Source of the DNA: a virus
Direction: 5' to 3' (one strand)
DNA length: 22,096 bases
IMG/VR virus record: IMGVR_UViG_3300010389_000160
Location: 1-22,096 of that record
Each line of letters starts with the position of its first letter. The first letter of the stretch is position 1. The position numbers and the translations under genes are program-made. Below the pieces are notes generated by a model. The model searched no databases, was not told the DNA's origin, and saw nothing but the letters and a program-made list of their open reading frames with translations. This document shows positions 91 through 20,801 of the stretch, one piece after another.

Positions 91-1005
91 ATGAAATCAT
101 GCATTTACAATCAAAACCTATTGAGGATGCTATTGGCTGCGGAAGGCGCAGACAATTGGCAGAGCTTCACCATGGAAGGTGCGACGGTCCCCGAAATCAG
201 GAGACTCAAAAAGCAGCTTCACGACAAGTATGGTTTATCTTTCGTTCCGGATGGAGCGATTAGCGGAGAAGCCGCTCCGGAAATAGAGGAAAAATACAAT
301 TTCTTGGCAAGTACGTATGAGTACATACCGTCAAGTGGAAAGTTTAGGAGGTATGGCTCAGGCAAGGAGCCTTTATTAGGCCAAGTGACAGCAAACGGCT
401 ATAGAGCAATAGGAACATTTTGGAAGAAGGCAGGGAAGGTCGTCAGCGCTCCGGCCCATAGGTTGGCTTGGTTTTGCCACTACGGAGAGGTACCAGCCGG
501 GCACGTAGACCACATAGATAACAACCGAGAGAATAACTGCATAGGCAACCTAAGAGTAGTTACGCACGCGCAAAACATGCGGAACAGGAAAGACAGCACA
601 GATGCGCCAGGTGTTCGAAGGGTTGGGAAGACGTCCAAGTTCAAGGCATCAATACACCATAATGGAGAAACCAAGCGGCTAGGCGTCTTTGATGACATGG
701 GTTCTGCCATTAGGGCTAGAAAACAAGCAGAGAAGATGGTTGATACTGGCGAATGGGACAAGGTAGAGGATTTTGAGCCAGCAACACACGCAAAAAGCGG
801 AAATGTTGGCGTAAGGATGAAGGGGGATCGCCATAGGGTTATTCTAGGATGCACTAGGCGCGAGCAAAGAAACGGCATGAAGGCCAATGTGCATATTGGT
901 ATGTATTCTGATCGCGAGACGGCATTGCTTGCCCGTGATATCTGCTACAAGTTGCGCGAAATGGGTTGCAACCCCAAAACCGGGGAGCCATTGCTTTTTG
1001 ACTGA
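91..1005 (+). CDS. HNH homing endonuclease with AP2-like DNA-binding repeats
   Basis: This 304-aa protein is a probable homing endonuclease that nicks or cuts DNA to spread its own gene. Residues about 75-168 form an HNH_3-type nuclease. The core HVDHIDNNREN (138-148) supplies the catalytic histidine region, followed by GNLRVVTHAQNM, the usual Asn-bearing end of the family. Two AP2-like DNA-binding segments follow, at about 173-215 and 238-290. Residues 1-60 are helical and unassigned. The gene is visibly less GC-rich than the terminase and uses more A/T-ending codons, which suggests independent acquisition. No good Shine-Dalgarno sequence precedes the ATG at 91. Its stop lies about 50 nt before the preferred terminase start. 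HNH proteins beside terminases can also assist packaging in HK97-type phages, but the AP2 repeats point to a mobile endonuclease. Confidence 0.85.
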   Translation: MKSCIYNQNLLRMLLAAEGADNWQSFTMEGATVPEIRRLKKQLHDKYGLSFVPDGAISGEAAPEIEEKYNFLASTYEYIPSSGKFRRYGSGKEPLLGQVTANGYRAIGTFWKKAGKVVSAPAHRLAWFCHYGEVPAGHVDHIDNNRENNCIGNLRVVTHAQNMRNRKDSTDAPGVRRVGKTSKFKASIHHNGETKRLGVFDDMGSAIRARKQAEKMVDTGEWDKVEDFEPATHAKSGNVGVRMKGDRHRVILGCTRREQRNGMKANVHIGMYSDRETALLARDICYKLREMGCNPKTGEPLLFD

Positions 1006-1054
1006 TTACACCCGCAATCAGAGACAAGACAGGTTCCAACGCAAGAGGCGCACG

Positions 1055-3079
1055 GTGACCGAAGGCAAGGCGCCTGCCAAGTTCGCCAAGTTGCGCGAGG
1101 ACAACGCCGGCTGCTTGCCCGATTGGCTGCGGGCGTTTATGCCCGAGAGCTTCCCGCTTGAGTTCTCGCCCGATCATATCGAGATGCTAACGCTCATGCA
1201 GGAGACAATTGAGCACGGCGGCATGTACGCGCTCGCCATGCCGCGCGGGATGGGGAAGACGACGAGCAGCCTAGGGGCGGCGGCGTGGGCGGTACTGGAA
1301 GGCCACATCAAGTACTTGGTGCTAGTCGGCGCCGACAGCAAGAGCGCGGGTGAAATGCTCGACTTCATCAAGACGCAGTTGCTGCACAACGAGCGCCTGC
1401 AAAAAGCCTATGCACCGGTGACGGGTTGGATGGAAGTAACGCAGGACGAGGACGGCGACAGCGAGTTCAATCACACGGGATACTTGAGCCAAGGCGAAGG
1501 GCAGGCATTGCGCTACAAGAGCCAATTGCGCCCCGACGGCAGAAAACCGCATGTCGAGTGGAGCAAGAGCCCGCCAAAGATTGTTTTGCCGTGGTTGCCG
1601 AAGTCAACGCAGGAGGCGCACGGCGTCAAGTGCTGCGGGGCGGTCATCGAGGCGCGCGGGCTGACGGGCGGGCTGCGCGGCATGAAGCACTGCCTGCCTG
1701 ACGGGACGGTTGTGCGGCCTGACATGGTGATAGCAGACGACCCACAGACGCGGGAAAGCGCCGCCAGTTTGACGCAGACCAAGACCCGCATGGAGATCAT
1801 GCGCGGCGACCTGATGGGGCTTGCCGGCCCCAACAAGGCAATTCGAGTTGTCGTCCCGTGTACGGTCATCAGCGAGGGAGACTTGGCAGATCAGTTGCTT
1901 GACCGCACCGAATGTCCCGAGTTTCGCGGGATCAAGAAACAACTGATCTACAAGTGGCCCGACGAGCAGGACGGCCTTTGGCAGCAATACGCCGAAATCT
2001 ATAAGCGATGCAAGCGCGAGGGCAAGACGACGGCGGAGGCTACCGAGTTCTATGCAGCCAACCGCAAGGCCATGGATGCCGGCGCCGAGGTGGCGTGGGA
2101 CGAACGCAAGGAGCCGAGGCAATTGTCGGCTTTGCAATACGCGCAGGACAAGCTATTGACCATGGGCGAGCAGGCATTTTATGCCGAGATGCAAAACGAC
2201 CCGCGCGCCAGCCAACCGACGATTTACGAGCTAAGCGCCGACAAGGTAAGCAAGCAGCTAAACGGGCTCCCGCAATACGAGCTTGGCCCCGAGTCGCATT
2301 TTGGCGCCGTCATGGTAGATATTAACATGTACGGCTTGCATTGGGTGGCAGTCGGGACGGCAAGCGACTTTTGCGGGACTATCGCGGGTTGGGGCAAGTT
2401 CCCGAGCGGTAACAAGCGGCTGTTCTACCCCGACAGGCGCGACGGCGTCACGGAGGAACAGGCCGTTTGGCAGGGTCTAAGCGAGCTGGTAGACGCCTTG
2501 ATCGCCTGCCCGTGGACGCGCAAGGGCGAGCGCGTGCACCTAGACGCCGTAACGATTGACTGCGGGTACCAAATGGACACCGTTTTCAGGTTCTGCAAGC
2601 ACAAACTGCGCGAGGGTGTGCCCTTCAAGCTGATCCCAAGTCGAGGCAATGCCAGCAAAAGCTATCGGCAATCGCGGGTCGTCGGGCGACCCGGAACGGG
2701 CTACCACGTAACCGAGTTCAGCGGGCGCGGGCGGGTGCTTGTCCACAATGCCGACTTTTGGCGGATGCAGTCGCAAAAAATGTTCTTGCTGCCGCCCGGC
2801 GCCCCCGGCAGCCTGTCGATCTACGGGCGCGACCACGTGAAGCAGCGCGAATTGGCGGACCAAATAACCGCCGAGCGATTGGTTGAGTATTACCGAGGAT
2901 CGACGCAGGACTTGTATAGTTGGTCAAAGCCGCCAGGACGGCGAAACGACTTGCTTGACGCGCTTGTTGGCGCCGTCGTTGCGTGCCATTTTATGGGAGC
3001 CCGACCGGCGGGCATCCCGCAGGAAGTAGTAAAACGCGCCAAGAAGCGCAGAGCAAAAGTGAGCGTAACAAAAGTATGA
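1055..3079 (+). CDS. terL: terminase large subunit
   Basis: This is the ATPase/nuclease motor that pumps phage DNA into the prohead and cuts it. From the GTG at 1055 it has 674 aa. The Walker A motif MPRGMGKTT lies at about 62-70 and the Walker B motif MVIADDPQ at about 224-231. The C-terminal RNase H-like nuclease shows acidic positions in VMVDIN (Asp about 422), VTIDCGY (Asp about 502) and RNDLLDAL (Asp about 632 and 635). I chose GTG 1055 because AAGAGG stands six bases upstream. The frame is open back to 887, and TTG 998, which overlaps the endonuclease stop, is an alternative start. The stop overlaps the ATG of the next gene (ATGA). No small subunit is recognisable in the window. Confidence 0.93.
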   Translation: MTEGKAPAKFAKLREDNAGCLPDWLRAFMPESFPLEFSPDHIEMLTLMQETIEHGGMYALAMPRGMGKTTSSLGAAAWAVLEGHIKYLVLVGADSKSAGEMLDFIKTQLLHNERLQKAYAPVTGWMEVTQDEDGDSEFNHTGYLSQGEGQALRYKSQLRPDGRKPHVEWSKSPPKIVLPWLPKSTQEAHGVKCCGAVIEARGLTGGLRGMKHCLPDGTVVRPDMVIADDPQTRESAASLTQTKTRMEIMRGDLMGLAGPNKAIRVVVPCTVISEGDLADQLLDRTECPEFRGIKKQLIYKWPDEQDGLWQQYAEIYKRCKREGKTTAEATEFYAANRKAMDAGAEVAWDERKEPRQLSALQYAQDKLLTMGEQAFYAEMQNDPRASQPTIYELSADKVSKQLNGLPQYELGPESHFGAVMVDINMYGLHWVAVGTASDFCGTIAGWGKFPSGNKRLFYPDRRDGVTEEQAVWQGLSELVDALIACPWTRKGERVHLDAVTIDCGYQMDTVFRFCKHKLREGVPFKLIPSRGNASKSYRQSRVVGRPGTGYHVTEFSGRGRVLVHNADFWRMQSQKMFLLPPGAPGSLSIYGRDHVKQRELADQITAERLVEYYRGSTQDLYSWSKPPGRRNDLLDALVGAVVACHFMGARPAGIPQEVVKRAKKRRAKVSVTKV

Positions 3080-3315
3080 CACCCGCCGCCGTCAAAAAAC
3101 GGCTACACTTGGCAGTTGAGCACCTGCAAGAGGCAGGCGTACGCGACTGTATGATTGCCTTCGAGGGCACGGACGAAGACGGCAGCGTGCAACCGTACGT
3201 GCTGCGCATTGGCTCGCCGATGGCGTGCTTGGCGTTGGCGCAATTCGCCAGCGACTACTTGGAGCAGCAACGCAATTCGGGAATCTACCAAAACGAGGAC
3301 GACGATGAAGACTGA
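3076..3315 (+). CDS. small hypothetical protein
   Basis: This 79-aa protein starts at the ATG inside the ATGA overlap with terminase, so it is probably translationally coupled. The frame is open upstream to 2983, but that part lies inside the terminase gene. The N-terminal half is helical and basic (TPAAVKKRLHLAVEHLQEAG). The C-terminal end is strongly acidic (YQNEDDDED). The middle, QPYVLRIGSPMACLALAQFASDYL, reads like a small alpha/beta fold. I do not recognise a family. It lies between packaging and glycosyltransferase genes and overlaps the next gene by 11 nt. Confidence 0.7.
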   Translation: MTPAAVKKRLHLAVEHLQEAGVRDCMIAFEGTDEDGSVQPYVLRIGSPMACLALAQFASDYLEQQRNSGIYQNEDDDED

Positions 3316-4513
3316 AGTGCTAATAGCCACCCGCCGCGACCCCGACTTGCGGGCGACGGTTGACAATATCAAGCAAAACAGCGGCTGCCACGTGACCGTG
3401 CACGAGGACGAGCGCGGCGCCGGCCCGCAGGCAATCCGCCACAAGCTGATCCGCGATGCCGTGCGGGCGGATGTAGTGATCGTCATGGACGGCCACATGA
3501 GAATTCGCAAGGGCACGCTTGACGCAGCAGCCGAGTATGTCGGCGCGCGAGGCAACAAGGTCGCCTGTCTGCGGTGCTTCCATAGCGAGCGGGAGGATTG
3601 GACGGGTACCCCGTATGCGGGCGCCACGCTGCAATGGGGCGGCAAGGGCAAGGATGCAGGCGAGCCGCAAGCATTCGTCGCCAAGTGGCGCAAGAGCCAA
3701 GACGCCGGCAAGATTGGCGCCGTCATGGGGGCGTGTTACGTCATGCGGCGCGATTGGTATATGGACGGCCTGCGGGCGCCTTGGCAGTGGGGGCAGGGCT
3801 GGGGCTGCGACGAGGAGTTGCTAAGTGCTGCTTCATATCTGCGTGGCGGGGAGGTAGAATTGCTGCCTTGGGCGGTTTGGCACCGTGCCCAGGTGGCAAA
3901 AAAGCAGGCTTTTAGGTACTCGCAGGCGCAAAAACTGGGCGTATGGGCTAACAGATTGGCGCTTTTGCAGGCGTTGCCGATGCCCGAAAAGCAGCGGAAC
4001 GAGCTTGTACGGCAGATCATGCCCGCGCTAGATATGCATAATTGGCGGCAGGTGGCCTTGCGGGTGGACAAAATCACCCTTGAATTGCAGGAATACCGCG
4101 CGTTTTTGGCTGCCGGCGGGCTAAGTTGGGGTGACTTTTGTACTCAAATCATGGAAAAGGAGACGGTGAAAATGGCTAGCATGATGGAAATGCGCGAGCA
4201 GGCGCGGGCTTTTGGGCTGACGGTGCCCTCTGGTTGCAAGAAGGTCGAGCTGCGGGCGATGTTGGACGACTTTCGTAAAACCGATTCACCCGAGCAGGTG
4301 CCCGAGCCCGAGCCGATGGAAGTGCCGAAGCGCCCGCGCGCGAATTGGGGGCCGGGAGAGTACAACAACCTGAAGGCGCGCGAATGCGTGCACTGCGGGG
4401 GCTTGCATACCGAGGTTGTAGGCGTGCGGCATATCGGCAAGCTGACGATTCGGCAGCGCATGTGCAAGGCCTGCTTCAAGCCGTTTCCGACTCGGGAGGT
4501 GGTTGTCAAATAA
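3305..4513 (+). CDS. GT-A glycosyltransferase (GalNAc-transferase-like) with C-terminal SAP/HeH-like segment and zinc ribbon
   Basis: This 402-aa protein starts at ATG 3305, with GAGG six bases upstream. The N-terminus (MKTEVLIATRRD) and VVIVMDGHMRI (57-67) are those of a GT-A nucleotide-sugar transferase. Asp62-Gly-His64 matches the metal-binding DxH motif of polypeptide GalNAc-transferases (GT27) and related GT2 enzymes. The segment GACYVMRRDWY (142-152), then WGQGWGCDEELLSAASYLRG (162-181) and ELLPWAVWHRAQ, matches the acceptor/catalytic block of that group and its terminal metal-ligand His. After about residue 285 comes a short SAP/HeH-like helical segment (about 294-325), a Pro/Glu linker, and a four-Cys zinc ribbon (Cys361, 364, 387, 390). 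I infer sugar transfer to protein or cell-surface acceptors; the actual substrate is not visible. An in-frame ATG at 4172 with its own Shine-Dalgarno could yield the C-terminal part alone. Confidence 0.8.
   Translation: MKTEVLIATRRDPDLRATVDNIKQNSGCHVTVHEDERGAGPQAIRHKLIRDAVRADVVIVMDGHMRIRKGTLDAAAEYVGARGNKVACLRCFHSEREDWTGTPYAGATLQWGGKGKDAGEPQAFVAKWRKSQDAGKIGAVMGACYVMRRDWYMDGLRAPWQWGQGWGCDEELLSAASYLRGGEVELLPWAVWHRAQVAKKQAFRYSQAQKLGVWANRLALLQALPMPEKQRNELVRQIMPALDMHNWRQVALRVDKITLELQEYRAFLAAGGLSWGDFCTQIMEKETVKMASMMEMREQARAFGLTVPSGCKKVELRAMLDDFRKTDSPEQVPEPEPMEVPKRPRANWGPGEYNNLKARECVHCGGLHTEVVGVRHIGKLTIRQRMCKACFKPFPTREVVVK
4157..4174 (+). promoter_or_regulatory. internal ribosome binding site and start in the glycosyltransferase gene
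   Basis: AAGGAG at 4157-4162 lies nine bases before an in-frame ATG at 4172 (residue 290). Initiation here would give a separate 113-aa protein (4172-4513) made of the SAP/HeH-like segment and the zinc ribbon, without the transferase. The domain border and the start coincide, which is the reason to suspect it. There is no direct evidence that it is used. Confidence 0.4.
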
Positions 4514-4607: not shown

Positions 4608-4826
4608 TTGGCTATCGCCACCACTACCGCGCGGCTCGAAGCCGTGCAAGCGGCAATCGCAGCCGTAGAAGCAGGGCAGAGCTTTACGATTGACGGCGTA
4701 ACCTTCACGCGCGCCAATCTCGCGACCCTGTATGCCCAAGAGAAGTACCTAGAGGGCAAACTGGCGAAAGAGTCGGGCAATCGTCCATTCATGAAGACAA
4801 TCGGCTTTACGGGGATGTCATACTAA
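4608..4826 (+). CDS. gpW-like head-tail joining protein
   Basis: This 72-aa protein starts at TTG 4608, seven bases after GGAGGG. Its length and layout fit lambda gpW: an N-terminal helix (TTARLEAVQAAIAAVEAG), a short beta pair (QSFTIDGVTFTR) and a second helix (NLATLYAQEKYLEGKLAKE). gpW binds the portal after DNA packaging and prepares the head for tail attachment. The position immediately before a lambda-type portal gene matches the lambda order W-B. The stop TAA overlaps the portal ATG by one base, which suggests coupling. Identification rests on size, fold-like pattern and synteny. Confidence 0.75.
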   Translation: MAIATTTARLEAVQAAIAAVEAGQSFTIDGVTFTRANLATLYAQEKYLEGKLAKESGNRPFMKTIGFTGMSY

Positions 4827-6286
4827 TGGCACCCCGTAAGCGAATGCCGCGCAAGGCTACGAACTTCACCTACCATGCCGCCGAGGATAAAGGCCGGCGG
4901 CAGGCGCCGGGCACCCGCACGAAGTCGGAGGACGTCGTTTTGCGGGCACCGCGCCGCAAGCGGCTGATTGCTACCGCTCGCGATCACTGCCGCAACTACG
5001 CCCTGATGGCGTGGGCAATCCGCCGGCACCTAGACTCCGTGTCCAAGTTCTCGCCTTTGGTACGGACGGCCAGCGACGAGCTAAACAACTACCTCGAAGA
5101 CAAACTGCGGCAGCACGGCAAGAAGCGCAACTTCGACGTTGCCAAGCGGCACTCGCGTGATTCGATGATGCGCCTGTTTGAGATGCTCAAGGTGACCGAC
5201 GGCGACTGTGCCCTCCACAAAGTCGACGGCGGCTACCTGCAAGGCATCGAGGGCGACCGTATCCGCGAGAACTCCGAGATAGGCACCAACGAGCACGGGC
5301 TGCTGATTGACGATTTTACCGGCGCCACCTTGGGCTATGCCGTCCACAACCGCACCGATGGCGGCGGCTTTGAGTTCGATAGGGTTCTGCCTGCCGAGGC
5401 GGTTGTCATGGACGGCTACTATGGTCGCTATGACCAAACGCGGGGCATCTCGCCGCTTGCGGCTGCGCTCAACATGTGTACCGACGCGCACGAAGCCTTC
5501 GAGTGGACGCAGCTAAAGATAAAATTTCACTCCATCCTTGGGCTGCAGATCAACCGCGCCACCACCAGCGAGGCAACGGACGGGTTCCCGACAACCGAAA
5601 GCCTAGACTACGACACCGACAGCGACGGCAACCAAACAGCCGAGAACCGCTACGAGTTCGACCCGTCGGGCTTGACCATGTTCGACATGGACCCCGGCGA
5701 GAGCGTCAGCCCGATTGAGAGCAACACGCCCGCGCAAGAGTTTACCGACTACAGCATGCTGATGATTCGGCTGATCCTGCTGGCGTTGGACATCCCATAC
5801 ACGGCATTTGACAGCATGTCTGCCAGCTTCTCCGCACGCATTGCAGATCGCGAAGAATATGAGAAGTCAGCCCAACACAAGCGGCAGAAGAATTGCGAGG
5901 TGTTGGAGGAAATCTACGAGTGGATCATTGGCGATTGGTGGGAGATGGACGACGAGTTGCGCCGCTTGGCGTCAGCCGCCGGCATTGTCAGCCCGTCCGC
6001 GCTGAATGATCGCGTCGAGTGGGTCGGGCAGTCGACGCCTTGGCTTGACAAGCTGAAGGAAGTCAACGGCGACGCCGTCGCCATTGCCAACGGACTCGAC
6101 AGCCGTAGTCGCATCGTCAAGCGCCGGCACGGCGTCAGCTTCGAAGACATAGCCCGCGAGTTGGCGGCAGAAGAGAACCTGGCCGACACGCTCGGGCTTG
6201 ACTTGGTCAAGGGCAACCCCGGCCAGCAGACGATTGGACAGATTGAAACACAGATAGACGAGGAAAACGCAAATGGCGACACCTGA
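4826..6286 (+). CDS. phage portal protein, lambda family
   Basis: This 486-aa protein forms the dodecameric ring at the unique capsid vertex through which DNA passes. The basic N-terminus and the stretch ARDHCRNYALMAWAIRRHLD are typical of lambda gpB-family portals, as is the later EFTDYSMLMIRLILLALDIP followed by SMSASFSARIADREEYE. The length is close to the family norm, slightly short. The start ATG overlaps the stop of the gpW-like gene by one base (TAATG), and the end overlaps the protease gene by 14 nt. The order joiner, portal, protease/scaffold, capsid is the lambda head order. Confidence 0.9.
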   Translation: MAPRKRMPRKATNFTYHAAEDKGRRQAPGTRTKSEDVVLRAPRRKRLIATARDHCRNYALMAWAIRRHLDSVSKFSPLVRTASDELNNYLEDKLRQHGKKRNFDVAKRHSRDSMMRLFEMLKVTDGDCALHKVDGGYLQGIEGDRIRENSEIGTNEHGLLIDDFTGATLGYAVHNRTDGGGFEFDRVLPAEAVVMDGYYGRYDQTRGISPLAAALNMCTDAHEAFEWTQLKIKFHSILGLQINRATTSEATDGFPTTESLDYDTDSDGNQTAENRYEFDPSGLTMFDMDPGESVSPIESNTPAQEFTDYSMLMIRLILLALDIPYTAFDSMSASFSARIADREEYEKSAQHKRQKNCEVLEEIYEWIIGDWWEMDDELRRLASAAGIVSPSALNDRVEWVGQSTPWLDKLKEVNGDAVAIANGLDSRSRIVKRRHGVSFEDIARELAAEENLADTLGLDLVKGNPGQQTIGQIETQIDEENANGDT

Positions 6287-7363: not shown

Positions 7364-8299
7364 ATGGCTAGTGCAACAGACACACTCGCAGGTATCCTGC
7401 TTCTTGGCGACGCCAACAACGCCGACATCGACGTCAGCGACTTGCTGGATGACGCCCCTCTCATTCGCGCCATGGCGGCTGTCACGTCAAGCCAAGGCAC
7501 GAGCCACAAGTACAACAAGCGCACGGTCGCAGCCGGCGTCGGTTTCCGTTCCATTGGTTCGGGTTTGGACAACTCTGCCGGCTCCATCGAGCAGATCACA
7601 GTTGCCCTCAAGTTGCTTGACGCCACCCCGCGCCGGGACCAAGGCGCTGCCGCTGGTTACAAGGGCGGCGCCGAGGCATACATGGCCAACGAGGCTCGTT
7701 GGTCGCTGCGCGCTGCTTTCGCTCAGGCGGAAAAGCAGATCATCTTGGGTACGGGAAATGCGGCAGGCGGCTTCGCTGGGTTCAACGACTCGGTATTTAT
7801 CGACGACCAAGGCGACGGCATGGTTGTTGATGCCGGCGGCTCGGGCGGTAACTCCGTCTACCTGATCCGTTCGACTCCCGACGACGTCGCGCTCGTCACG
7901 AACGGCGAGATCGAAGTCGGCGACCTCCAAGGCGTCAGCATCTACGACGGCTCGGCGAGCTACCCGGGTTGGCAGTTGCCGATTCTGTCGTGGCTCGGTC
8001 TGCAAGTCGGCAACGCGTTCGGCATCAGCCGCATCTACAATCTTGACGGCACCAGCGGCAACACGCTGACTGACGACTTGATTGCGGAAGCCTACGCCAA
8101 GCATCCTGTCGGCAGCAAGCCCACGCACATCGTGATGGGCCGTGAAGAGCAGCGCCAGTTGCAGAACTCGCGGACGGCCACCACGACCACCGGCGCCCCG
8201 GCGCCTTTCCCCACGATGTGGGAGAACCTGCCGATTATCGTAACCGATGCTCTCGTGAGCAACGCAGGCGGTACCCCGGCAACCACGACCACCACCTAA
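7364..8299 (+). CDS. major capsid protein
   Basis: This 311-aa protein is the probable major head subunit with an HK97 fold, assigned from its position directly after the protease/scaffold, its strong ribosome binding site (AGGAGG, 7351-7356) and the efficient terminator behind it. The N-terminal half (DLLDDAPLIRAMAAV, then ALKLLDATPRRDQGAAAGYK) and the C-terminal half (AYAKHPVGSKPTHIVMGREE, then WENLPIIVTDAL) have the long-helix and closing-strand pattern of capsid proteins. Two Thr clusters stand out: ATTTT at 272-276 and the last residues PATTTTT. The C-terminal Ala-Thr tail recurs in two other virion-region proteins here. No short N-terminal delta domain or cleavage site is obvious. Confidence 0.85.
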   Translation: MASATDTLAGILLLGDANNADIDVSDLLDDAPLIRAMAAVTSSQGTSHKYNKRTVAAGVGFRSIGSGLDNSAGSIEQITVALKLLDATPRRDQGAAAGYKGGAEAYMANEARWSLRAAFAQAEKQIILGTGNAAGGFAGFNDSVFIDDQGDGMVVDAGGSGGNSVYLIRSTPDDVALVTNGEIEVGDLQGVSIYDGSASYPGWQLPILSWLGLQVGNAFGISRIYNLDGTSGNTLTDDLIAEAYAKHPVGSKPTHIVMGREEQRQLQNSRTATTTTGAPAPFPTMWENLPIIVTDALVSNAGGTPATTTTT

Positions 8300-8375: not shown

Positions 8376-9371
8376 ATGGCAGATTACAGCGACCTAGTAC
8401 CGGCATACCTGCGGCCATCCGTCAGCGACGGGACGCGACTAAAGCCGAGCATTACGACGAGCAACTACTCGGGCGGCACGCCTAGCGCAGCCGACGAGGT
8501 GAAGCCGTCGCTTATGTATGCTGACGGCACGCTAAAGGAAAGCGTCGCGGATGCCGTCGGACTAAAGGCGTCGTGGCTATTGGCCGGCAGCCCGCGCCCG
8601 CCGAATACGGCACCCGTGGCATCCTCCGTTGCATTCACCGGCACCCAAACGGTTGGCGAGACGCTGACCCGCACCTATAGCTACTCGGACGCAGACGGCG
8701 ACAGCGAGGGAAGCAGCACGACGCAATGGTATCGGGCTGACGATGGGAGCGGGACAAATGAAGCCGCCATCTCTGGCGCCACCTCGGCCACTTATACGTT
8801 GCAAGCCGCCGATGAAGGTAAGTTTATCCGCGTCGGCGTGACGCCGGTTGCGGCTACCGGCACAAGCCCAGGCACCGAGGCTTTCAGTTCATACAGTGGG
8901 GCGATTGCGGCGGCGGGGTTGACCGAAGTCGCCACCACCACCGTAAGCGGTGGCGCGGTATCGTCCATGTCCATCACCGTCAACCTTGTAGCGGGCAAAA
9001 GCTACCGCTACGGCTACGGCGTCGAGCGCGTTAGCGGCACCACAGCCGTCACCGTCGAGATCAACAACGACGCGACCGCCGGCAACTACGACCGCGGCAA
9101 CATGGACGGCACCTCCCTTGCCGACAGCAACGCGCTCTTATCAAACAATCCGGCAAGCGCCGGAGACGTAGCTACGGCCTTTGGTGCAATCGGACTTCTG
9201 AATGCCACTCCATATATCGTTGGGCAAAGCACCCAGGTCGCCGCATCTGCTCGCGCACAGGCGGGAAGCGTCATCAACACCAACGAGTCAACCGTCGCCA
9301 CAATCACGATACAAGGCGGCTCCGCCGAGATCGCCAACGGCTCATGGCTTACCTGTTGGAGGCTCGACTAA
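8376..9371 (+). CDS. probable head fibre or decoration protein with Ig-like domain
   Basis: This 331-aa beta-rich protein has three parts. Residues 1-70 hold short related phrases (LRPSVSDGTRLKPSI, KPSLMYADGTLKES) that could anchor it to the virion. Residues about 77-176 form an Ig-like/bacterial surface-adhesin type domain with the phrases VGETLTRTYSYSDADGD, TQWYRADDGSG and SATYTLQAADEGKFIRVGVTPV. Residues about 182-331 are a beta-sandwich domain homologous to both halves of the next protein (shared VSGGAV, INNDATAGNY, NTNEST and a GSWL/GSYI-type end). It lies right behind the capsid gene and ahead of connector genes, where head decoration proteins are usual; a tail-fibre role is the alternative. 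The ribosome binding site is weak (GGCGGAAG). Confidence 0.65.
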   Translation: MADYSDLVPAYLRPSVSDGTRLKPSITTSNYSGGTPSAADEVKPSLMYADGTLKESVADAVGLKASWLLAGSPRPPNTAPVASSVAFTGTQTVGETLTRTYSYSDADGDSEGSSTTQWYRADDGSGTNEAAISGATSATYTLQAADEGKFIRVGVTPVAATGTSPGTEAFSSYSGAIAAAGLTEVATTTVSGGAVSSMSITVNLVAGKSYRYGYGVERVSGTTAVTVEINNDATAGNYDRGNMDGTSLADSNALLSNNPASAGDVATAFGAIGLLNATPYIVGQSTQVAASARAQAGSVINTNESTVATITIQGGSAEIANGSWLTCWRLD

Positions 9372-10318
9372 TGGCACTCTCCGAAATCTGCAACACCGTC
9401 AACGCCGGCGGCAACGTGTCCGTCCTTGCCTCCGACACTTTTACCGCGCTGACCGAAGGCGAGCCGTACCTGTTTGAGGCGTCCGTTATTGCATCCGGTT
9501 CTGGCACCGTAGAGCTGTTCGTCAACAGCGACGTCACCCGCACAAACTACGAAACCAGCGCCGTGCAATCCGACGGCGGTAAGTCCCAAGGAGTATCTAG
9601 CGGCATCAAGGCCACCCCGGACGGCTCTGGCGACGTCGTTGTCATAAAGGGCATCGTTTGCCTTTTCGGCGGACGCCCCTTTATCCTTGCCGAAGTCGTC
9701 GACTCAGGCGCGACGGAACGCTGCACCATACAAGGAACCGTCAACACCAGCGAGAGCACCATCACGCAACTCCGCCTTGTTGCCTCCGGGTCAATAATCG
9801 CGGACGGCAGCTATATCAAAGTATTTCCGGTTTCCGATCTAGCCACCACGGCAGAAGTGACCGTTAGCGGCGGGGCCGTTGCGACGATGGACACCGGCGC
9901 ATTTGCCGCGCTGACCGAGGGTAAGGCTTACTTGGTTTTTATGAGCTACCTACAAACCGGAAACGGCGGCCGCACGACGGACTTGTTCATCAACAACGAC
10001 CAAACGGCGAGCAACTACCGCCAAGGCCGCATCCGCGCCTACGGGACTAGTGGCAACTTCTCTACGGCCACCTCGATAGAGGGATCGGTTGACGGCAATC
10101 GCGCCGTCGCCTTCGGTTTTATTAGCGTCCTGAACTCGACGCCAACCTGGGCCGTCATGCACTACCAAGAAAACACGGTAGCCGGTTCTATCTACGCCAT
10201 AAACCTGCACAACAGCCACCACCCCACCGAGAGCGACCTCACCCGCGTACAACTCGCCTCCCGTACCGGCTCACCCATTGACAACAACTCGCGCATACTA
10301 ATCAAGGAGTTTGCATAA
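9371..10318 (+). CDS. duplicated beta-domain protein, probable head decoration or fibre
   Basis: This 315-aa protein starts at ATG 9371, overlapping the previous stop by one base. It consists of two copies of one domain of about 150 residues (about 1-158 and 162-315). Both copies carry ALTEG.YL near the start, then an ELFVNSDVTRTNY/DLFINNDQTASNY motif, then NTSEST or HPTESD followed by QL and SGSIIADGSYI or SRILI near the end. The same domain forms the C-terminal half of the upstream protein. It has no Ig-like domain or N-terminal anchor. I infer a virion surface or carbohydrate-contacting beta sandwich, co-expressed with the upstream gene. No enzyme motif is seen. Confidence 0.65.
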   Translation: MALSEICNTVNAGGNVSVLASDTFTALTEGEPYLFEASVIASGSGTVELFVNSDVTRTNYETSAVQSDGGKSQGVSSGIKATPDGSGDVVVIKGIVCLFGGRPFILAEVVDSGATERCTIQGTVNTSESTITQLRLVASGSIIADGSYIKVFPVSDLATTAEVTVSGGAVATMDTGAFAALTEGKAYLVFMSYLQTGNGGRTTDLFINNDQTASNYRQGRIRAYGTSGNFSTATSIEGSVDGNRAVAFGFISVLNSTPTWAVMHYQENTVAGSIYAINLHNSHHPTESDLTRVQLASRTGSPIDNNSRILIKEFA

Positions 10319-12514: not shown

Positions 12515-12811
12515 ATGGGTTTTGGAATCGACACCAGCGGGAATATCTCCCGCAACACGAACTACACCGTCAACGTGGCTGAGAAGATCAGCGAGGTTGG
12601 CAACATTGACGAAATGACTGCATATGGCGGCGCCGAGGAAACTACCTTGGAAAGCTACGTCGATGCGGGCAGCTTCGCCAACGAAGCCACCAACGCCCAG
12701 GCGGCGGGCGGCACCATCGTGACGGCGCACAGCCTGATCGAGAGCAACACCGAGTATGCGCGGCAGTCCAAGACGACGCGCGTTGCCTTGCCGGCGACTA
12801 CCACCACCTAA
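12515..12811 (+). CDS. small virion-region protein with Ala-Thr4 C-terminus
   Basis: This 98-aa protein starts at ATG 12515 behind a strong AGGAGG, which suggests high expression. It sits where the tail-tube (major tail) gene normally lies, but is much shorter than usual tube proteins. The composition is polar and Thr/Asn/Ala-rich without hydrophobic segments. The C-terminus ALPATTTT matches the ends of the major capsid protein and the 288-aa protein at 15080. It could be a minimal tube or a decoration protein. I recognise no family. Confidence 0.65.
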   Translation: MGFGIDTSGNISRNTNYTVNVAEKISEVGNIDEMTAYGGAEETTLESYVDAGSFANEATNAQAAGGTIVTAHSLIESNTEYARQSKTTRVALPATTTT

Positions 12812-12820
12812 ACGGGTCAC

Positions 12821-13615
12821 ATGGCAGTACCAGCCCAATACATCAAAGATGCACCAGTTGATTGGCGGCTTGAGTTTATGCAAGCCGCCCGTCAACCGTT
12901 GGCGTTTGGTACTGCCTTGATCCCCCCGCCTACCTTCGGCGTGTGGGCAATGCTGGAGTTGTGCGATTGCGACTTTGTGCACCCCGTGAAGGAACCAACG
13001 CCGTTTGGTGCAGTGATGGCTTCTTATCTTGCGGCCACGGGCAGTCGGGCGACGCCGTTTGTCGATGCCTATCTGCAAAGCGACGACAAGCCGACAACCT
13101 TGGAAGATGCTCGCGAGTGCCCGCTGATGGGCCGCGCGGTCGAGTGGGCGTTGACGGTTGACGCAGATCCCGAGAGGGACTACCCGCGCCTTCGGGATTG
13201 GTTGTTTGCGGGCTTTGTCGGGTTCTCGATGATACCCGGCGGCGGCGAAACGGGCGAGTCGCTTTTTGGCATTGACTCGCTTGCTGCCATGATTGCCGGC
13301 GTCGGCGAATCGCTGGGCTGCGGGTGGGAGGCAATCATGTGGGATACTCCTATGATTGTCGTCGGGCATACCGTCGCGCAGACCGCCCGCCAAAACGGCA
13401 CCAAGGGCGTCGCCCGCCCGAAGGACAAACAGCACATGCGCGAGATGTTCGAGCTGGAGCGCGAATGCCGCGAGACGGGTAGGCTCTACCCATGGCAGGA
13501 GGATCACCCGCTAGTTTTCGGGCCTGACGGGCACGAGTCGCCCGATGAATACTACCGGCTCGCAGAGCTGACTTGCAAAGCCAAGGAGGGCAAGCGTGGC
13601 AAAGCTAACGATTGA
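12821..13615 (+). CDS. hypothetical protein preceding the tape measure
   Basis: This 264-aa protein lies directly upstream of the tape measure and overlaps it by 20 nt, the place of tail assembly chaperones. Residues 1-120 contain a Pro-rich turn (ALIPPPTFGVWAMLELCDCD) and an acidic region (DARECPLMGRAVEWALTVDA). A hydrophobic Gly-rich stretch (FAGFVGFSMIPGGGETGESL) follows, and the C-terminus (FELERECRETGRLYPWQEDH, SPDEYYRLAELTCKAK) is charged and helical. I found no slippery heptamer or second overlapping reading frame of the lambda G/GT kind. The protein is unrecognised; a chaperone role is inferred from position only. Confidence 0.6.
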   Translation: MAVPAQYIKDAPVDWRLEFMQAARQPLAFGTALIPPPTFGVWAMLELCDCDFVHPVKEPTPFGAVMASYLAATGSRATPFVDAYLQSDDKPTTLEDARECPLMGRAVEWALTVDADPERDYPRLRDWLFAGFVGFSMIPGGGETGESLFGIDSLAAMIAGVGESLGCGWEAIMWDTPMIVVGHTVAQTARQNGTKGVARPKDKQHMREMFELERECRETGRLYPWQEDHPLVFGPDGHESPDEYYRLAELTCKAKEGKRGKAND

Positions 13616-15080
13616 GCTAGGCGCAACAATCGGCAAGCTCAAGCGCGGGCTTGCTAACGCCCGCGCGGAGCTGAAGGGTTGGAGTCAGCGCGTTGCCAAG
13701 CTGGGCAAGGTGGGCTTGGCTGTCGGTGCTGGCGCCTTGGCTGCGGGGCTTGCGACGCTGACTAAGCGCGCGGTCGAGCTTGCCGCAAAATTCCAGCAGA
13801 CTCAGGTGGCATTTAATGCCATGTTGGGCGACAGCCAAAAGGCAGCAAGCCTGATCGAGGCGCTGACCGAGTTCAGCACCAAGACGCCATTTAGCCCAGA
13901 GAAGGTACAGCAGGCGGCTAAAACCCTGCTGTCGTTTGGCTTCACGGCGGAGGAGGTCAAAAAGACCCTGAAGCCGTTGGGCGACGTGGCTGCCGGGACT
14001 GGCAAGGACTTTCAAGAGTTGGCCGTCATATTCGGGCAGATCAAAAGCGCGGGCCGATTGATGGGGCAGGACTTGCTCCAGCTTATCAACGCCGGGTTTA
14101 ACCCCTTGCAGGTCATGTCGGAAAAGACGGGCAAGAGCGTCACGCAGCTCAAGGACGACATGAGCAAGGGGCTAATTACCTTTGACATGGTGGAGCAGGC
14201 ATTTATTGACGCCACCAGCGCGGGCGGCTTGTTCAACGACATGATGGCAAAGCAGTCAGAGACGCTTATCGGCAAGGTGTCAACCCTGAAAGGCAACTTT
14301 GACGAGCTTCTAAAAACCTTGGGGTCTGGTTCCACGGGTTTCCTCGCCGACTTAGTGGAGCAGTTGAACGAAGCAACAAAGGGCTTCCAAGAAATGGCGA
14401 CGGCCATGGAGGCTGCTAACTCATCTGGGATAGATACCGGCATGGGGTTCGATTTTCGCAACTTGGTCGCTAGGTTGATCGAGGTAAATGCTGCAACGGG
14501 AAACCCCCTAGCAAAGTCAATGCTGCCATATGCCGGCGAGCTGAGGGAGGCAGTACTAAGGAAGCAGGGCATTGAACTAGGTGGGCCAAGTGAAGCGGAA
14601 ATAGAATCTGCCAGATTGGGCAGGACACCTACAGAGCCGCTAGCGGGAAACGATATTACCGAAAGACTCGAAAAAGAGGCCAAGCTACGGGACGAATTAA
14701 ACGGGGAGATTGCCGATTGGATCACCGACTTGGAAGCGGAGCACAACAAGACCCTGAGGGAAATAGCCCAAGACAATTCGATTTTGGAGCAGCAAGCCCG
14801 CGCCGCCCGCGAGTTCGCCCGCGACTCGTTGCGCGAAGGCATCGCCATGAACGAGAAGCGGGCGAGCGAGCTAGAAGCAAGCATCGCGCAGGCATTCCGC
14901 CCGCAAGGCGAGATCGCCAGCGGGCTTGCCCGCATCGGCGGCGAGCGCGGCATCACGCTTGCTCGCAACGTGCCCGAGAGGCAACTGTCAGAACTTCAAG
15001 CAATCCGCAAGGGTATCGACGTCATGAAGGACGCATTGCAACAGATTGACACCACGCCAGCTTGGCCCGGAGGTAGATAG
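13596..15080 (+). CDS. tail tape measure protein
   Basis: This 494-aa protein starts at GTG 13596, behind AAGGAGGG. Residues about 1-35 are a basic helix (IGKLKRGLANARAELKGW) followed by a hydrophobic stretch (VGLAVGAGALAAGLATL). Residues about 58-215 are the tape-measure N-terminal domain: FQQTQVAFNAMLGDSQKA, FSTKTPFSPEKVQQAAKTLL and GQDLLQLINAGFNPLQVMSE are its typical phrases. The rest is helical and charged to a Pro-Gly end. The protein sets tail length and is threaded through the tube. At 494 residues it is short for a siphovirus, so a short tail is expected. The part encoded by about 14400-14760 is richer in A/T-ending and CTA/AGG codons than its flanks. Confidence 0.87.
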   Translation: MAKLTIELGATIGKLKRGLANARAELKGWSQRVAKLGKVGLAVGAGALAAGLATLTKRAVELAAKFQQTQVAFNAMLGDSQKAASLIEALTEFSTKTPFSPEKVQQAAKTLLSFGFTAEEVKKTLKPLGDVAAGTGKDFQELAVIFGQIKSAGRLMGQDLLQLINAGFNPLQVMSEKTGKSVTQLKDDMSKGLITFDMVEQAFIDATSAGGLFNDMMAKQSETLIGKVSTLKGNFDELLKTLGSGSTGFLADLVEQLNEATKGFQEMATAMEAANSSGIDTGMGFDFRNLVARLIEVNAATGNPLAKSMLPYAGELREAVLRKQGIELGGPSEAEIESARLGRTPTEPLAGNDITERLEKEAKLRDELNGEIADWITDLEAEHNKTLREIAQDNSILEQQARAAREFARDSLREGIAMNEKRASELEASIAQAFRPQGEIASGLARIGGERGITLARNVPERQLSELQAIRKGIDVMKDALQQIDTTPAWPGGR

Positions 15081-15946
15081 TGGCAATTACAGGCACCCAA
15101 CACCCGTCAAGCCCGCAGACGAGCCTACAGAGCAACGGCAACAAGGTCATTGTGCGGCGCTTCCAATATGCCCGCGACGACGCATGGGAAGCAGACATGC
15201 CCGCGCTTGGTTCCTTCGATGCCTCCTATGGGTACTTCCGTGGCTATCGGACAACCAACGGCCCCGCATACCTGACGGTCGAGCTTGTCTACGACAGCGA
15301 GGGCACGGTCATCAACTTCTCGCCTGGCGACGGCGACACGGAGTATTGGGCGGAGACGCGCGGCGACGAGGTGCCAATTGAATATCACCCGAGCTACTTG
15401 GTCAAGTGGAATCATAACCTGTACAGTACCAAGAAGGGCGCAACTCCGAAGGACGTTACAGTTTTCGAGGACTTGTTAAATGATGGCAGCCCGGCGCCGC
15501 CCGATGCAGACTCTAAGTTGCTTGCTGCGCCGGAGGACAAATGGGACACGATGAAGGACCCAGCGAGCGCCAATACTAACGGTTCCGTTGCCGTCAACTT
15601 GGTAGATTGGACGGTAACCAAAGGGGACCCCGGGATTGGTTGGTATATCGTCAAGAAGAAAATCAAGCCGGGCCTAGAGTTCTACGTTCGCCCGCAGCGG
15701 GTTGTTGTCCGTCGCGACTACCACCGGCAGCAATCGTCGGCAGAGTCGGCGTTGGCCGCAGTAGGCACCCTGTCGACGCCGGGCGAAACCTTCGGCGAAT
15801 CGGGCGGCAATTGGCTTGTTATGTCGAGCAATACCAAGTATGACGGCAAGTATTGGGTGACGGAAACCGAGTATTGGTACAGCGACCGTCAGAGCGAAAC
15901 GGGTATTGGTTGGGATACGGATATTTATGCCACTACTACCACCTAG
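15080..15946 (+). CDS. virion-region protein with Ala-Thr4 C-terminus
   Basis: This 288-aa protein starts at GTG 15080, overlapping the tape measure stop (TAGTG). It is rich in Trp, Tyr, Asp and Gly and looks beta-structured throughout (NKVIVRRFQYARDDAWEADM, AYLTVELVYDSEG, GLEFYVRPQRVVVRRDYHRQ, KYWVTETEYWYSDRQ). No membrane segment or enzyme motif is visible. Its place after the tape measure suggests a tail-tip or minor tail protein. It ends YATTTT, like the capsid and 98-aa proteins. The last 20 nt overlap the start of the next gene, so the codons for the Thr tail are read in a second frame as well. Confidence 0.65.
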   Translation: MAITGTQHPSSPQTSLQSNGNKVIVRRFQYARDDAWEADMPALGSFDASYGYFRGYRTTNGPAYLTVELVYDSEGTVINFSPGDGDTEYWAETRGDEVPIEYHPSYLVKWNHNLYSTKKGATPKDVTVFEDLLNDGSPAPPDADSKLLAAPEDKWDTMKDPASANTNGSVAVNLVDWTVTKGDPGIGWYIVKKKIKPGLEFYVRPQRVVVRRDYHRQQSSAESALAAVGTLSTPGETFGESGGNWLVMSSNTKYDGKYWVTETEYWYSDRQSETGIGWDTDIYATTTT

Positions 15947-19661: not shown

Positions 19662-20801
19662 TTACAGCTCCGAGTTATAGTAGAACCGACTCACCCGACC
19701 GGCGCGGGCGTGGTACTCAAACCCGCTCGCGCCTTTTTGGCTTCCGACGAAGCCCGCGCTTGCATGCCAATCGTCAACGGGGCAAAGCGCAGGCAGGTAC
19801 TCGACGTGCAAGCCAGCCTGTTCCTCCGACACCACTGGCGCGACGGCCTTCTTGTGATGCACGTGCCCAAGGTATAGGTATCGGTGGCGGGTCTTGCCCC
19901 AATTGGCAGCCATCTCGGCGGCGATAATCTGCGCCCACTTGCTGAAGCTAATCCGGTCCCCGTGCGTCCATGCCAACAGGTTGTCGCCGAATACAAGCGA
20001 CTTCCGATGATAGTGGGTTAGATCGACGGTGACGCGCTTCTCGCGGCGCCAGTAGGCATTTAGGACGCGAGTTAGCCACTTGCAGGAGTCTCGGTCATGA
20101 TTGCCAGGACAGACGACAACCCGAACCCGCTTGGCAACCCGCGCTGCAACTTGGATCGCGTCAACGCATGCGGCTTCTGCATACTCGATCACCCGTTGAT
20201 ATCGGGTGTCAACGTCAACCGTGTGACTTTGGCTCGTCGTTTGGTTGAACGAGTTGTCGGCGTGGATAATGTCGCCTCCGAAGACAACGACCACCTCGCC
20301 GAGGCGACCGAACCTGCCGGCAATATACTCGGTTGCCTTCAGCATCTCACGGGCTGCAATATCGCAGTTGTAGTCGGAGCCCCGAGTAATCCGCTCGGCG
20401 GCATACATGCCGACATGCGGGTCGTAGATATCAATCTCGCCAAGCATGTCGTCGCGGTCGCTCTTCCGGGCTTTGTACTTACCGACTCGGCCCTTGCCGT
20501 CGACGCGCTCGCACAAGGCAGTCACCAAGTCTTCGAGAGCCTGCTGGCTCGGCTCGCAGCGCGGCCATGCCTGCAACACTTCCATCTCGCCGGCTTCGTT
20601 GCGGGCAATGTGCATTGTGCCCTTGACCACATCGACGCCTGACGGCACAACGCCTTGCCCCAAGTATTGCTTGGCTCTTGCTTTTAGATGCGTCCTTACG
20701 CTACTGCGGCTGATTCCAAGCGCCGCGGCAATCTTTGATTGCGTCAAGCCCTCGTCTGCAAGCTGCCAGCACCGCGCTTGGTTCCCGTTGTTACTTCCCA
20801 T
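19662..20801 (-). CDS. HTH-metallophosphoesterase fusion (calcineurin-like, Mre11/SbcD-like)
   Basis: This 379-aa protein joins an N-terminal helix-turn-helix (about 11-43, EGLTQSKIAAALGISRSSVR) to a calcineurin-like phosphoesterase. All metal-site motifs are present in order: DIYDPHVG (Asp127, His129), FGGDIIHAD (Asp177), CPGNHDRD (Asn234, His235), AWTHGDRI (His280) and LGHVHH (His313, His315). This is a two-metal phosphodiesterase or phosphatase of the DNA-repair exonuclease type. The HTH suggests that it acts at or on DNA, perhaps as a nuclease in replication or host-DNA breakdown. The ATG at 20801 overlaps the end of the upstream zinc-finger gene by 11 nt. Confidence 0.85.
   Translation of the reverse strand: MGSNNGNQARCWQLADEGLTQSKIAAALGISRSSVRTHLKARAKQYLGQGVVPSGVDVVKGTMHIARNEAGEMEVLQAWPRCEPSQQALEDLVTALCERVDGKGRVGKYKARKSDRDDMLGEIDIYDPHVGMYAAERITRGSDYNCDIAAREMLKATEYIAGRFGRLGEVVVVFGGDIIHADNSFNQTTSQSHTVDVDTRYQRVIEYAEAACVDAIQVAARVAKRVRVVVCPGNHDRDSCKWLTRVLNAYWRREKRVTVDLTHYHRKSLVFGDNLLAWTHGDRISFSKWAQIIAAEMAANWGKTRHRYLYLGHVHHKKAVAPVVSEEQAGLHVEYLPALCPVDDWHASAGFVGSQKGASGFEYHARAGRVSRFYYNSEL

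Follow-up and report, generated by a model that had tools for sequence, protein, structure and literature searches.

A GT27-like glycosyltransferase and threonine-tailed virion proteins in an uncultured phage: a putative system for virion O-glycosylation

The head and tail module and its threonine tails

The window, that is, the whole stretch of DNA that was analyzed, is a 22,096-base IMG/VR virus fragment from an uncultured phage and contains a lambda-type head and tail module (all coordinates refer to the + strand unless noted otherwise). The module begins with an HNH gene that precedes the gene of the large terminase subunit (terL, 887–3079). The latter was assigned by family search against PHROG and Pfam and, together with the portal and tape measure genes, provides the context of the locus. 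Between terL and the gene of the lambda-type portal protein (4826–6286) lies a gene for a GT27-like glycosyltransferase of 402 amino acids (3305–4513), which is separated from the portal gene by a head–tail adaptor. A protease/scaffold gene leads to the major capsid protein of the GP7 family (7364–8299; PF20911, E 1e-8; PHROG 212, E 1e-14), and Ig-type appendage proteins and then connectors follow. A 98-aa protein (12515–12811), for which family searches in Pfam and PHROG gave no match, takes the tail-tube position by synteny, as its gene comes after the tail terminator and before the chaperone and the tape measure protein (13596–15080). The 288-aa protein encoded directly after the tape measure (15080–15946) is by synteny a probable distal tail protein and is followed by the fibre.

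Some neighboring genes deserve mention as side aspects. Two consecutive Thr-rich proteins are encoded after the capsid gene (8376–10318); they have a "TVSGGAV..M" motif in common, the first contains an AIR9 Ig domain, and they are possible capsid decoration or appendage proteins. The late module closes with a class-3 lipase (PF01764; 18037–18636), and a fusion of an HTH domain with a metallophosphoesterase is found on the opposite (-) strand (19662–20801).

A preliminary description of this DNA had pointed to three proteins with threonine tails that are transcribed in the same direction as the transferase, and this was borne out. The major capsid protein ends in ATTTTT (tail 8282–8296, codons ACC ACG ACC ACC ACC), the protein in tail-tube position ends in ATTTT (12797–12808, ACT ACC ACC ACC), and so does the probable distal tail protein (15932–15943, ACT ACT ACC ACC). 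These three tails are the proposed acceptors. Only these three among 31 genes encode proteins that end in four or five Thr. When the own Thr content of each of the 31 proteins is taken into account, 0.0016 proteins ending in TTTT are expected, and the probability of finding at least three is about 7e-10. The Thr tail of the capsid protein is an extension past the conserved protein end, and the homologues of the 98-aa and 288-aa proteins in one relative (L171) carry no tail. Runs of five or more Thr were found at the very C-terminus in 21 of 24 cases, and two others were within the same tail region. The mixed Thr codons together with this C-terminal placement indicate selection on the peptide. 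As another origin of the tails, we considered slippage at simple repeats, which is disfavored by the same two aspects, i.e. the mixed codons and the almost exclusively C-terminal runs. That the tails are exposed on the virion is inferred.

An enzyme related to polypeptide GalNAc-transferases

The open reading frame at 3305–4513 has no internal stops, and its start lies 11 nt inside the upstream ORF. The preliminary description had named a DGH metal motif and a WGxGWGCDEE...WHRA block, and all of these elements are present (D62-G-H64, WGQGWGCDEE at residues 162–171, and WHRA at residues 192–195). In a profile alignment, D62-G63-H64 (3488–3496) is aligned with the D-S-H of GalNAc-T2, W166-G167-C168-D169-E170 (3800–3814) with its WGGEN, and H193 (3881–3883) with the His of "SRVGHVFRK", which we take to be the third metal ligand of GalNAc-T2. 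In a 10-member family alignment, no variation is seen at D62, H64, G142, A143, Y145, W166, G167, D169, E170, and G181, and almost none at H193. The C-terminus (residues 360–398; 4382–4498) contains an NrdR-like four-Cys Zn ribbon that stays under the Pfam cut-off and is common to most close relatives; it possibly binds nucleic acid or protein. The protein also has a helical part and a weak SAP match.

The family was not easily accessible. With the enzyme alone as query, neither isolated phages nor IMG/VR or GTDB genomes yielded a relative, a DNA pattern for WGxGWGxDE detected zero relatives, and a scan with the tape measure protein returned distant phages only. Relatives in IMG/VR were opened up by a looser, degenerate reverse-complement DNA pattern on the "GA-x-Y...R...WG" stretch, and a profile scan enlarged the enzyme family further. 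Distant homologues were seen in planctomycete assemblies (L167 and L168, contigs of Candidatus Brocadiaceae MAGs), which can be taken as a hint, not as evidence, with respect to the hosts. In three other members, the GT27-like domain is located inside larger proteins (L136:13423–16443, L160:9935–11752, L159:9761–11569). In the other half of these proteins, a "GSHIITNWI...LLRSPENYI" pattern is found, which by eye resembles sulfotransferases, and no sulfotransferase match was obtained for them in Pfam.

As a single sequence, the enzyme gave no match to GT27, and the homology became visible only with the family profile. The best 16 PDB matches of this profile were all polypeptide GalNAc-transferases, with GalNAc-T2 at an E-value of 7e-17. 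A single-sequence AlphaFold model was unusable (pLDDT 41), and we therefore rely on the structure that was predicted from a 10-row alignment (pLDDT 80, pTM 0.69). With this model, the best 50 Foldseek matches were all GalNAc-transferases, and VIA-align superposed 259 residues on GalNAc-T2 at 2.8 A with a Z of 25.2; the next families were GlfT2 (Z 18.3) and the chondroitin polymerase K4CP (Z 15.1). The profile matches and the fold comparison together establish the resemblance as real homology, and the view of the preliminary description that the enzyme is GalNAc-transferase-like is thus supported by profile, fold, and motif alignment alike.

The predicted enzyme shares with GT27 (GalNAc-T1/T2) the whole GT-A fold over its residues 1–290, and the DxH motif, the distal His, and the WG line up in the profile alignment to GalNAc-T2. 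It differs from GT27 in that the pairwise identity is only about 17% and in that WG is followed by C-D-E instead of completing WGGEN, so that D-E replaces E-N. Furthermore, no ricin-type lectin domain was recognized by Pfam, and the Zn ribbon is found instead. Since the donor motif WGGEN is not matched, we call the enzyme GT27-like and do not file it as a GT27 member, and the differing residues after WG (CDE versus GEN) leave the sugar open. Residues 16–152 also match GT2 (PF00535) at an E-value of 0.0014, which is under the Pfam cut-off, and distant members of the family exceed this cut-off; the closest solved structures are nevertheless GT27 and not GT2 enzymes. As judged from sequence profiles and the predicted structure alone, the phage thus encodes with ORF 3305–4513 a GT27 kind of glycosyltransferase, metal-dependent and with a GT-A fold.

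Pairing of enzyme and tails in relatives

The preliminary description had predicted that phages with the transferase should have tailed capsid proteins and that phages without it should not. We compared 80 loci of capsid-protein relatives and counted clusters at 95% identity in which the terL–portal interval was present. Enzyme and tail occurred together in 8 clusters, both were absent in 21, and neither the enzyme without a tail nor a tail without the enzyme was found (Fisher's exact test, 2e-7). Clustering at 70% identity gave 6 clusters with both, 14 with neither, and again none with only one of them (3e-5). Three further tailed capsids (L169, L172, L187) are encoded on contigs that end before the position of the enzyme. 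In the capsid tree, the enzyme-positive rows group in one region, which corresponds to only one or two changes, i.e. independent gains of the enzyme–tail pair, and the p-values therefore overstate the independent evidence. Within the capsid family, the prediction thus held in both directions (tails in all 8 enzyme-encoding clusters and in none of the 21 others), whereas "no enzyme, no tail" fails outside this family, as tails also occur in unrelated phages.

The pairing is not restricted to the capsid family. Distant enzyme members are encoded beside tailed proteins without similarity to the capsid protein of the window (L134, L121/L136, L160–162). For L136 and L160, the ORF of the enzyme comes immediately after a tailed gene or overlaps with it. 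The core enzyme clade comprises 13 records, 11 of which are tailed; among 163 background loci, the number of tailed ones is 6 at most. Five tailed proteins each, which are unrelated to one another, were found in L077 (capsid, head closure, tail terminator, tail-tube position, and a tail/fibre protein) and in L153, and the tails of relatives reach 24 Thr. The tails in L155 and L189 are real and are overlapped by antisense ORFs. There are also records with only one of the two partners: no tail was found in the enzyme-encoding L159 (20.6 kb) and none was seen in the short record L082 (4.8 kb), which contains an enzyme-family member, and L232 and L236 encode one weakly tailed connector each, with the enzyme not found.

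Further transferases (GT17-like, GT2) are encoded beside the enzyme in L077, L153, L155, and L189, as if they built a longer glycan, and radical SAM/SPASM genes accompany the enzyme in L077 and L153. The largest cassettes (L077 and L153) go with the longest tails, which is an impression from a small sample. As a side aspect, the terL–portal interval can contain cassettes with GT17-like, GT2, and radical SAM/SPASM genes that immediately precede the GT27-like gene (L133:39–2438, L153:2058–4776, L189:5116–5934).

When we scanned for stop codons preceded by at least seven Thr codons, at least 120 stretches were returned, and many true multi-tailed phages were among the matches listed. The catalytic domain of the enzyme was detected in 0 of the 17 tailed records of more than 20 kb among these matches, all of which are possibly fragments, and a general presence of this enzyme in poly-Thr-tailed phages was consequently rejected. 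GT2 and GT4 enzymes were not enriched either (6 of 17 tailed versus 4 of 20 control records, p 0.46). Many unrelated phages from metagenomes encode several proteins with C-terminal runs of 7–20 Thr, and the enzyme family was not found in them (L249, L254, L262, L269, L270, L279, L293, L297, L318, L323, L360, L366). A protein of about 190 aa that ends with ..SPYFNVTFATTTTTTTT recurs in this set, and in one poly-Thr-tailed record without GT27-like enzyme a GT4 gene lies close to tailed genes (L371:2776–4173). The absence of the enzyme from many tailed phages implies either other modifying enzymes, possibly encoded outside the contigs, or another role of the tails, and it is what weighs most heavily against the view that the tails exist for glycosylation. 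A large set of poly-Thr-tailed phages thus remains unexplained, and their modifying enzyme, if there is any, is unidentified.

These tails without the enzyme, together with the one or two changes of the pair on the capsid tree, are what an own role of the Thr tails would lead one to expect: the tails could serve as flexible C-terminal extensions, in adhesion, or in assembly, without being glycosylated by the enzyme, and both could simply have been co-inherited in one lineage. We regard this as unlikely, as distant enzyme members show the same pairing with unrelated tailed proteins, as tails are far more frequent in the core clade than in the background loci, and as this kind of enzyme acts on Thr/Ser of flexible peptides.

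A putative O-glycosylation of the virion

Taking these aspects together, we think it likely that the phage uses this enzyme for O-glycosylation of the Thr tails on its own virion proteins, with the acceptor, the donor (UDP-HexNAc), the glycosylation itself, the exposure of the tails, and the benefit all being inferred. This reading is supported, strongly but only indirectly, by the kind of the enzyme, which acts on Thr/Ser of flexible peptides, by the tails, and by their pairing in relatives. The enzyme would transfer a sugar from a UDP-sugar to hydroxyls of the C-terminal Thr runs, the acceptors would be the capsid, tail-tube, and distal tail proteins of the phage, and the finished virion would bear O-glycans at many C-termini, which may shield the particle or may mediate adhesion.

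Virion glycosylation by phage enzymes is known. As reported for the mycobacteriophages Che8, Corndog, and Myrna, the C-termini of their capsid and tail-tube proteins bear glycans that are attached by phage glycosyltransferases (Freeman 2023, as cited in PMC12619734 and PMC12363180), and these glycans reportedly shield the phages from antibodies (PMC12619734, PMC12363180, PMC11256854, PMC11600133). The phage described here resembles them in having a phage-encoded glycosyltransferase and Ser/Thr at the C-termini of the capsid protein and of the protein in tail-tube position, the latter assigned by synteny only. In contrast to the mycobacteriophages, the enzyme gene is located between terL and portal, gp108–110 of Che8 are outside the family of the enzyme, with gp109 showing weak similarity over about 90 columns only, and poly-Thr is lacking in Che8, the capsid protein of which ends in TGS and the tail tube protein in DGS. 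In the literature that was searched, which did not include most subscription papers, there was no report of poly-threonine phage tails and none of a phage GalNAc-transferase homologue acting on virions.

The NrdR-like Zn ribbon and the weak SAP match could also be read as guiding the enzyme to phage DNA, which it would then glycosylate, and DNA-modifying phage glycosyltransferases are known (Pyle 2024, as cited in PMC12619734). We consider this highly improbable, since the fold is nearest to peptide-acting enzymes, the gene is part of a virion module, a thymidylate-synthase/hydroxymethylase homologue (PF00303) is absent from 8 family records (all of them fragments), and the tails would be left unexplained. 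A modification of host surface glycans for serotype conversion or superinfection exclusion, which is a common role of temperate-phage glycosyltransferases (general knowledge; PMC12619734), is scarcely credible here, as the gene belongs to the packaging/head module and does not occupy a lysogeny-conversion position, as no integrase, flippase, or similar protein was recognized in the window (not every ORF being covered), and as the enzyme co-occurs with tailed virion proteins.

Glycosylation of the own virion thus remains our preferred reading. Beyond it, and only tentatively, since we are less than evenly convinced, the family may represent a GT27-type mucin-like system, in which one initiating Zn-ribbon transferase, sometimes followed by an extending cassette, would act on dedicated C-terminal poly-Thr tags that most of the exposed proteins of the virion would carry, and phages with more transferases would have longer tags. 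If true, viruses of prokaryotes would possess a counterpart of mucin glycosylation. If the Thr tails are indeed glycosylated, virion O-glycosylation would extend beyond actinobacteriophages and would be readable from sequence, as a transferase between terL and portal together with poly-Thr C-termini. Portable Thr tags and a soluble GalNAc-transferase-like phage enzyme would then be at hand for protein engineering, and the function of phage glycans in shielding or in adhesion to mucus or surfaces would become testable.
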